From the NCBI GenBank assembly GCA_021163815.1, contig JAGGTJ010000174.1:1-35410 (forward strand): 35,410 nt of DNA. The letters run 5' to 3'. Of the stretch, positions 20,289-33,175 are shown one piece after another. Source of the DNA: Deltaproteobacteria bacterium (GTDB taxonomy: Bacteria > Desulfobacterota > DSM-4660 > Desulfatiglandales > Desulfatiglandaceae). The notes below the pieces were generated by a model. The model saw only the letters and a program-made list of their open reading frames with translations, was not told the DNA's origin and searched no databases. The position numbers and the translations under genes were made by a program. Every line of letters starts with the position of its first letter. Position 1 is the stretch's first letter.

Positions 20289-20969
20289 ATGCAGATTCAA
20301 TGTGATAAGTGTGGAAAGAAACTTGTTATTCCCGATGAAAAAATTCCTGCAAATACCCACGTAGCCATATCATGTCCTCAGTGCAAAAACAGGATATCCC
20401 TATCTGTTGATAAGACAGACAGGAAGGGAGGATCTTTGGGATCTGTCTCTTTGAACAGGGTTTCTGGCAAACAGGCACAGGATAGGGATATGTACAGCCA
20501 TGATTATGATGACAGTGTGCTTGATCTGTACGAGAATGGAATGACAGCAGCCATAATCATTACTGATGACAGGACCCTGGCAGAGAGAACAGGGCGTGCT
20601 ATTGTGGAGTTGAAATACAGAAGTGTTCCAGCTTTTACGTCGAGAGATGCAATAGGCAAGCTCAGACTTCATCAGTTTGACCTGTTGATTATGAATGATA
20701 ATTTCGAGGATATGTCTATTGAAAATAATCCTATAATGAAATACTTAAATCATCTTTCCATGTCTGTCAGAAGGCGGATGTTTGTAACATTGATAAGTGA
20801 AGAATTTAAAACCATGGATGAACTGATGGCATTTGCATTGAGTGTTGATCTGATAATAAACATGAAGGATATAGAGAAAATAGCCATTATCTTAAAACAT
20901 GCAATTTCCGCGCATGAAAAATTTTATAAGGTATTTACCGATACCTTGGCAGAAATTGGTTATGCGTAA
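20289..20969 (+). CDS. Zinc-ribbon protein with a degenerate receiver-like domain
   Basis: The N-terminus is a zinc ribbon (Cys5, Cys8, Cys29, Cys32) of the type found at the start of many deltaproteobacterial regulatory proteins. A linker of about 45 residues follows. Residues about 85-205 look like a CheY-type fold: hydrophobic strand AAIIITDD with the two acidic residues, and strand FDLLIMND. The phosphorylation aspartate appears to be Asn136, and the conserved Lys-Pro near the end is missing, so it is probably a pseudo-receiver. AAGGAGAT lies 6 bases before the ATG. It follows the pilT-pilU pair by 113 bases on the same strand, suggesting a role in pilus motor control; that is inference. 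I cannot name a characterised family. Confidence 0.75.
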   Translation: MQIQCDKCGKKLVIPDEKIPANTHVAISCPQCKNRISLSVDKTDRKGGSLGSVSLNRVSGKQAQDRDMYSHDYDDSVLDLYENGMTAAIIITDDRTLAERTGRAIVELKYRSVPAFTSRDAIGKLRLHQFDLLIMNDNFEDMSIENNPIMKYLNHLSMSVRRRMFVTLISEEFKTMDELMAFALSVDLIINMKDIEKIAIILKHAISAHEKFYKVFTDTLAEIGYA

Positions 20970-20977
20970 AAATCTGC

Positions 20978-21207
20978 GGGGGACACCCGCCCCTTAAGCA
21001 TTCCCAGCACTCAACTACTAATCAGAAAATGGTTTGCCGAGAGGCTTGGGTTACCTGATGAAGGACTATGCTTTCTATAGAGTTTTTTGGAGAGTTGAGT
21101 GCTGGGCTGCGGTTTCCCCCACTGATAAGTCACGAAGAAACGGCACCCTCCCGGCAGTTGCGTCAGAAAAAGCCTCCTACCCCAGCGCTGTGTTCGCTGT
21201 TATTCCC
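20978..21207 (+). repeat. R2 structured repeat, copy 1
   Basis: Non-coding element starting GGGGGACACCCGCCCC. It contains a perfect 14-bp inverted repeat, CCCAGCACTCAACT (21003-21016) with AGTTGAGTGCTGGG (21093-21106), enclosing 76 bases. A core of about 100 bases (21105-21207) follows that differs from the inverted copy at 32692-32843 at only about three positions. GGGGGA (20978-20983) can pair with TCCCCC (21115-21120) around the long stem. Confidence 0.75.
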
Positions 21208-21517
21208 CTTATCCTCTCCTTTTTGTATGGTTCTGTATAATTGTGAGACCATATCTTTATTAAACTTTTAATGGTGCCCATTTACAAATAAATTGTTGGA
21301 CGCTATAAAGGTTTCAGTTCATACCTAAAACCCGCATAAACTATTTTCAAGAAGAAAAATATGCTTTTAATATCAAGGAATTATAGAAATGTTGTGCTTG
21401 TATAACTCTCATCAGTTTAAATATGGTCATGGTTAGAATTTTGGCCTTCCCTGAACTTGAACAAAATTGAATATTATGTAAGTGTCTCAATATGTTATGT
21501 AATGTTGGTGTGTTTTT
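21208..21517. other. Intergenic region before the MenE-like gene
   Basis: A+T-rich, with an R4 left end at 21320-21352 and no gene. A possible weak promoter for the next gene is TTGAAT, 18 bases, TATGTT near 21467-21500. TTGAACAAAATTGAA occurs here and also, on the minus strand, in the ftsH leader near 17065. Confidence 0.4.
21320..21352 (+). repeat. R4 repeat, left-end fragment
   Basis: TACCTAAAACCCGCATAAA followed by CTATTTTCAA matches the left end of the complete R4 element at 31113. Confidence 0.55.
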
Positions 21518-32520: not shown

Positions 32521-32620
32521 CGTTTTACCATGAAAACACACAAAAGCATGTTGAAAAACCAGTATGTATTTTCATATCCGTGGGTGGCCAGGATATTTTG
32601 GATCCGGCCATGCCGGTTTA
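32521..32620 (+). repeat. R3 repeat, copy at 32.5 kb
   Basis: Contains GTTGAAAAACCAG, then TTTCATATCCGTGGGTGG, GGATATTTTGGATCCGGCC and ATGCCGGTTTA. The same order of blocks recurs in direct orientation at 33176-33270, with similarity over about 95-100 bases, and a shorter match lies at 1771-1827. Confidence 0.75.
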
Positions 32621-32691
32621 GCAACAAGATGATGAATCGCAGCTTTAGGCCTTCCAGAGTACTATTGTTTTGTGGTATCAGCTCAATAATT

Positions 32692-32843
32692 AGGGGAATA
32701 ACAGCGAACGTAGCGCTGGGGTAGGAGGCTTTTTCTGACGCGACTGCCGGGAGGGTGCCGTTTCTTCGTGACTTATCAGTGGGGGAAACCGCAGCTCGAC
32801 GAAGTCGAGAATGCGGAGGGGGCAGGTGTCCCCCACAGATAAG
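32692..32843 (-). repeat. R2 structured repeat, copy 2 (inverted)
   Basis: On the minus strand the outer arms are 32829-32843 (CTTATCTGTGGGGGA) and 32772-32786 (TCCCCCACTGATAAG), which pair at 14 of 15 positions. Inside are a CCGCA/TGCGG stem and a CTCGAC-TTC-GTCGAG hairpin (32795-32809). The core after the hairpin is almost identical to 21105-21207. AGCTCAATAA near 32681 and its near-complement TTGTTGAGCT near 32902 may be the outer ends of this copy. Confidence 0.78.
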
Positions 32844-33175
32844 TTACTGAAGAGACCAGCCCGGAGGCCCGGAGCGGAGGAAAAAACCTCCTGCCCTTGT
32901 TTGTTGAGCTATTACGTTTTGTGTCAAATGGCTGACGACAAACAAACTGGGAGTTGCATTTTATATCTATATCCACATGTAATGATTCTATCCTTTAACT
33001 GCCTGAATAATCATTCTAAATCCAAGTTTCCCCCTCTTTTGTTTTCTTCATAAAATCCCTGGCATAATTTTTGCCGTATCTTCTATGTGCATAGTCTTCT
33101 TCCACAAAAGATTGTTCTTTTGCAATTCCGCTGTTTCTCTGTGTGTCGGATGCGTTGATCTTGAAGAATTTGTAT

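Follow-up and report, generated by a model that had tools for sequence, protein, structure and literature searches.

The window, i.e., the whole stretch of 35,410 nucleotides analysed here, contains two copies of one element in opposite orientation. The inverted pair had been described from the letters alone (hereafter the sequence-only reading), and BLAST recovered it as 21106-21212 (+) against 32689-32795 (-), with 96% identity over 107 bases and about four differences. The perfect 14-bp stem attributed to copy 1 was confirmed by a script check (21003-21016 / 21093-21106, enclosing a 76-base loop). The 6-bp stem with a 3-nt loop attributed to copy 2 was read from the sequence as CTCGAC-TTC-GTCGAG, and the GCA/TGC pairing with TT opposite C is present in the sequence of both copies. 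The boundaries of the core had been drawn too narrowly. When copies from the same genome were read with their flanks, the earlier core proved to be the right-hand portion of a longer near-palindrome. What is conserved is a hairpin of ~185 nt, and copy 2 forms a transposable unit of 241 bp. As claimed, the tips of the two copies do differ, but the comparison of the arms had set the hairpin tip of copy 2 against its alternative, the 104-nt apical domain of copy 1. That the element forms the body of MITEs had been missed. For the copies below, the strand listed is that with the better-supported RNA fold.

20972..21212, strand -: copy 1, a relic of the element of copy 2 (BLAST against own-genome copies, ORF list)
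21003..21106, strand -: apical domain of copy 1, 104 nt (14-bp stem, 76-nt loop), which replaces the small hairpin
21107..21212, strand -: right arm of the core of copy 1 with the 3' extension GCGCTGTGTTCGCTGTTATTCCCC (BLAST)
32667..32674, no strand: left copy of the 8-bp target-site duplication of copy 2, GTTTTGTG (script read, family tally of duplications)
32675..32915, strand +: copy 2, a complete MITE of 241 bp (terminal inverted repeat matches, perfect 8-bp duplication), with the ends GTATCAGCTCAATAATTAGGGG and, on the other strand, GTAATAGCTCAACAAAC
32716..32898, strand +: structured core of copy 2, ~183 nt, from P1 outer stem to P1 (covariance model R1)
32795..32809, strand +: variable apical hairpin of copy 2, 6 bp with a 3-nt loop (sequence)
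32916..32923, no strand: right copy of the 8-bp target-site duplication of copy 2, GTTTTGTG (script read)

Copy 1 no longer has the outer left arm or either terminus, and starts directly past the stop codon of the ORF-list gene 20289-20969. Covariance model R1 recognised copy 2 on the alignment strand (-) with 193 bits (E value 1.4e-47). The earlier statement that no protein explains the core is borne out, the core not being inside any protein gene; a protein-coding reading is contradicted by one-base insertions and by the variable length of the tip across copies. A second dispersed repeat adjoins copy 2 (window 32540-32640, CCGGCATGGCCGGATCC...CACGGATATGAAAATA..TTTTCATGGTAAAACG), and its signature was found in 25 of the 64 own-genome loci fetched.

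The BLAST search proposed in the sequence-only reading returned 46 matches in the own genome, a draft of 1.6 Mb in 176 contigs with 71% completeness. Many copies had E values below 1e-70, which is far beyond chance. With the whole unit as query, 41 of 99 relatives belonging to several families of the order were matched, and outside the own genome the matches nearly always comprised the inner ~180 bases only. In an even sample of 297 genomes across the phylum, the covariance model matched 6, a lower bound with eight candidates scored per genome; all six belong to the same order or to two other families. The named host records are MAGs of Desulfobacterales, Deltaproteobacteria or Pseudomonadota. 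Four genomes have 25-99 matches each, counts that include some opposite-strand hits of the same copies. Plasmids and phages gave no match to the element; in IMG/VR the core pattern was absent, and the two 16-mer matches there are not the element.

All of the 104 scorable copies (non-redundant, with a called gene on both sides within 500 bases) are intergenic, as judged by simple ORF calling and not by a gene finder. Their orientation is unbiased (26 same and 36 opposite in tandem contexts; convergent/divergent 21/21), which speaks against a fixed role in cis regulation and in favour of strand-blind insertion between genes. The orientation bias hinted at in 40 copies, which would have suggested a cis-regulatory role, was gone in the 104. 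No promoter was identified for the element. At L077 and L078, a copy adjoins sequence that resembles the terminal part of a group II intron maturase gene (GAGCCGTATGGGATCC...).

In the own genome, a full-length copy starts with GTAATAGCTCAACAAAC and, beyond the folded body, closes with AATTATTGAGCTGATAC. The terminal inverted repeats carry GTAWYAGCTCAAYA at both ends, a pattern with 149 matches in the own genome and none for the reversed-pattern control. The target-site duplication is 8 bp long and is perfect in copy 2. In a tally over all loci fetched, the 8-bp flanks agreed in at least 7 of 8 positions in 24 of 65 IS66-type units, as against 0.24% of cross-pairings in which left and right flanks came from different units. 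Copy 2 contains no transposase gene (241 bp, without a long frame). Units of 54-176 bp represent internal deletions (60-bp, 85-bp, 88-bp and others), many with perfect duplications. From the 8-bp duplications and the short deletion forms it follows that the unit is a MITE, and the window element shows every defining feature that could be tested. Near-identical 60-bp forms from which the core has been deleted occur at three sites, again with target duplications. These short units indicate that the IS66-type ends appear sufficient for movement, and the core-deleted forms suggest that the vehicle needs its ends only.

Intergenic palindromes at high copy number also characterise the REPINs, which are mobile with RAYT proteins (PMC3116915), and some of the vehicles described below have IS200/IS605-like hairpin ends. 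Both points would suit a REP/REPIN-type repeat moved by a RAYT/TnpA-REP protein. The window element differs from REPINs in its size, its terminal repeats and its duplications. The search for a linked transposase or RAYT gene, advised in the sequence-only reading, showed that neither adjoins the element and that no transposase-like gene family recurs beside the copies. For the window copy, with its terminal inverted repeats and 8-bp duplications, REPIN/RAYT identity fails, and we regard this explanation as scarcely credible.

IS66 elements have GTAA-type ends and produce 8-bp duplications. In a relative (G020), an IS66-like transposase is bordered by window-type ends at L198/L199. It is divergent: at the two G020 loci it scores 46.6 and 42 bits in Pfam, above the cut-off of 23.1, and lies under the NCBIfam cut-off. 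In another relative (G018), locus L382 is a 1.0-kb remnant between two window-type ends which, judged by eye from similarity to the G020 proteins, comprises the start of a DruA-like protein and an IS66-like C-terminus. A DruA-domain protein is coupled to the divergent IS66-like transposase at L198, L199 and L382, probably as an autonomous element. A complete autonomous element with both window-type ends was not recovered among the loci examined. The ends of the window element are absent from the strong IS66 loci in G018, G022 and G040, which were considered as a source. Since window-type ends flank DruA/IS66-type transposase genes in relatives, the vehicle in the window is probably moved in trans by the IS66-like enzyme of a DruA-IS66 element; the match of the ends is observed, and from it we infer the mobilisation.

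The same core was found between differing terminal sequences, even inside one genome. In G070, it lies between GTTCAAAAGTGTTTNCATG ends, and these ends likewise enclose a unit of 1.47 kb that encodes an ISH6 transposase (466 bits). The short ISH6-type units of this genome have 8-bp duplications agreeing in at least 7 of 8 positions in 6 of 15 cases, compared with 2.9% in the control. The ends of an autonomous ISH6 element together with an 8-bp duplication are features of the G070 copies and not of the window element. In G065 (L434-L451), an element of ~105 bp, which has constant ends and a pair of subterminal hairpins, occurs in many near-identical core-less copies, four of which were read fully, and in several core-filled versions with the core between the hairpins. 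This pair offers a good comparison of empty and filled states. The two-hairpin element, CTATCAA..TATCTAC, exists with and without the core. By its anatomy, it resembles IS200/IS605-derived elements, and carriers of this type were seen in G020 and G065. Further ends around the core include TTACTAnnGAGAGCAT, TGATTATTGCTTTAGCTCC, GTAAnTGATCAC, ATCATCCGGCAAATGAGTAC and more. The common part starts at the inner P1 (CTTTTC..GAAAAG), while the outer ~12 bp are vehicle-specific yet complementary. A single core occurs with various kinds of ends, of which two can be assigned to unrelated transposase families, and the mobilisers likely act in trans and come from unrelated families.

The conserved structure was analysed in an alignment of 48 divergent copies (A1) and in a later set of 80 copies. 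Since the consensus from RNAalifold by itself was poor, the structure was assigned manually and then tested. Alignment A1 supports a single nested rod. It begins with P1 (~18 bp), followed by an internal loop that contains one pair, then by P2a and the symmetric UCCC/UCCC loop, and continues through P2b-e and P3 to a variable tip. Tested against a null of columns simulated on the inferred tree, the top six covarying pairs of the 48 copies all fall in P1, P2a and P2b. In the 80 copies, 14 pairs reached E<0.05, and 12 of these belong to the nested structure; the 14 comprise ten helix pairs in P1, P2 and P4, two P3 pairs and two that join neighbouring P3 columns. Double changes occur in 33 of the 56 pairs of the named structure, and the double-change cells number 278, versus 101 in shuffles and 49-79 when the structure was slid, with the proviso that covariation can also be mimicked by template-switch repair between the arms of a palindrome. 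The subfamily G020b re-pairs the P2c/P2d helices, which are almost invariant elsewhere, from GTCTTTTC/GAAAAGAC to GTGATTTCA/TGAAATCAC and from ACTTATC/GATAAGT to GCAGTTATGGG/CCCATAACAGC, with the loops largely kept. The asymmetric internal loops are unpaired and conserved across families. The tip sequence differs between copies, with compensation. Relatives of the 104-nt apical domain of copy 1 are found at the corresponding position in G033 and G052, the latter from another family of the order, and the base of the stem is compensated (CAGCAC/GTGCTG, CGGCAC/GTGCCG, CGTCAC/GTGACG); the members used were those that aligned by eye, as automatic extraction also caught unrelated sequences.

Covariation beyond phylogeny, a criterion for structured RNA, is present in the core. 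The genome-wide copies, whose covariation the sequence-only reading had made the touchstone of its proposal, do covary in our own R-scape-like test, and its suggestion of selection on RNA or single-stranded DNA is supported by nested compensatory changes across several families of the order, beyond the tree-aware null and the shuffled and slid controls. The core fits no Rfam family: there was no match for the window at the gathering threshold, nor for nine other loci at relaxed E values.

A functional strand would be expected to gather wobble pairs, so that an excess of A.C over G.U on the alignment strand points to its complement. For the alignment strand, 188 A.C events (= G.U on the complement) were counted as against 82 G.U events; restricting the count to internal branches gave 51 and 18. 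The complement is the more stable strand in 77 of 80 copies, with a mean of -98.8 versus -85.0 kcal/mol. On these counts and folding energies, the complement of the alignment strand is taken as functional, i.e., the + strand for copy 2 and the - strand for copy 1. Mutational bias can in part influence the strand test; among unpaired sites, G>A is in weak excess, whereas T>C versus A>G tends the other way, so that they show no consistent bias. The small apical stem has the opposite asymmetry or none. The asymmetry fits RNA, and is also compatible with strand-specific single-stranded DNA.

Two other explanations bear on this pattern. According to the first, the element would be an ordinary palindromic MITE with a functionless core, in which template switching keeps the arms complementary and conservation reflects common ancestry. 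Palindrome arms are known hot spots for template-switch repair, and deletion series and decayed copies are common in this family. Such repair would perfect the internal loops too, yet the asymmetric loops persist across families; moreover, a functionless core predicts neither strand asymmetry nor a core common to unrelated termini. We consider it improbable. According to the second, the fold would matter as DNA, as a strand-specific hairpin or cruciform aiding MITE transposition, replication restart or single-strand processing. The core is a long near-palindrome, carriers include single-strand-type hairpin elements, and single-stranded DNA with G.T pairs also predicts strand asymmetry. This proposal is rather unlikely in view of the core-less 60-bp forms, which have duplications at several sites and for which the IS66-type ends seem enough, and of the loops, whose conservation across unrelated transposases is unfit for a transposase-specific role.

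We favour, as probable though by no means assured, a portable candidate structured RNA (or strand-specific single-stranded DNA) which hitchhikes on unrelated, trans-mobilised MITEs. An intact copy would be a non-autonomous mini-transposon, and a transposase encoded outside it would cut and paste its ends. Its body would be a portable module of ~185 nt that, as the RNA or single-stranded DNA of one strand, is predicted to fold into a long rod with P1 as its outer stem, with conserved internal loops and the stems P2a-e and P3, and with a variable hairpin or domain as its tip. Selection would keep the fold and the loop sequences, while the outer stem, the tip and the terminal repeats may be swapped. 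The module may be a hitchhiking structured RNA that arises by read-through transcription of intergenic copies, and its conserved loops might act, e.g., on a host protein or RNase, so as to favour the spread or tolerance of the carrier. MITEs from at least two unrelated transposase families (IS66-like and ISH6) would have acquired the module; a third carrier type with IS200/IS605-like ends is probable, and several MITEs with other ends would be carriers as well. We infer, rather than observe, the RNA nature, the mobilisation in trans and any benefit to carrier or host. A more specific version is put forward tentatively, as possible: a selfish or host-useful RNA of ~185 nt, outside Rfam, would be exchanged between mechanistically unrelated mini-transposons (IS66-like, ISH6 and single-strand hairpin elements) and spread through this order of relatives of sulfate reducers on whichever is available.

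Bacterial IS66-type MITEs share with the window element terminal inverted repeats starting with GTA, an 8-bp duplication, the absence of genes and the IS66-like ends of relatives; the body in the window differs in being a conserved structured module common to unrelated MITEs and not a decayed transposase. HEARO/omega RNA and other transposon-linked RNAs are likewise structured noncoding modules tied to transposons and present in many copies. Unlike these, the core has no Rfam match and no TnpB/IscB-like gene was seen beside it, and its vehicles have terminal inverted repeats and duplications. ERIC/IRU, Correia/NEMIS, RUP and CIR are multicopy, imperfect intergenic palindromes of 100-200 bp according to the available portions of two reviews (PMC2229807, PMC10969869), which also report transcribed structures in some of them, RNase III or RNase E effects for Correia and ERIC elements and, for bacterial MITEs, IHF sites and RNase III processing alongside transcribed structures. 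The present element differs from these four groups in sequence and host lineage. The QMITE of Coxiella, which has terminal inverted repeats, a core and 7-9-bp duplications, a strongly folding transcript and a proposed role as a source of small RNA (PMC5896051, PMC10969869), has the same layout of repeat, core and duplication; in the available portions of these sources, neither cross-family covariation nor cargo exchange was found. One internal structure under different terminal repeats was likewise not found in the available portions of the MITE reviews (PMC2229807, PMC10969869). Within the open-licence literature, one folded cargo common to different transposons appears to be undescribed.

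MITEs are usually viewed as inert ends plus filler. If the proposal is true, the filler is conserved, folded and strand-specific in unrelated MITEs and has a job. The family would then be a natural experiment on the demands made on a non-coding passenger that spreads via different transposases, and may constitute a new class of bacterial noncoding RNA with tens of copies per genome.

In MAG AUK324 (L092, L118, L180), many copies have a domain of ~100 nt (TGCCAACGCCAATTGAGCG...CAATGGCGGGCAGG) in place of the small GGGGG/CCCCC hairpin of the core, and other copies of this MAG have an arm with repeated GGGGACCCATCCGAAGGATGGGG units. At L094, L101, L102, L220 and L255, side hairpins were swapped or gained in single lineages, e.g., TCCCGCC-GGCGGGA; the new hairpins are self-complementary each time, an additional instance of structural compensation.
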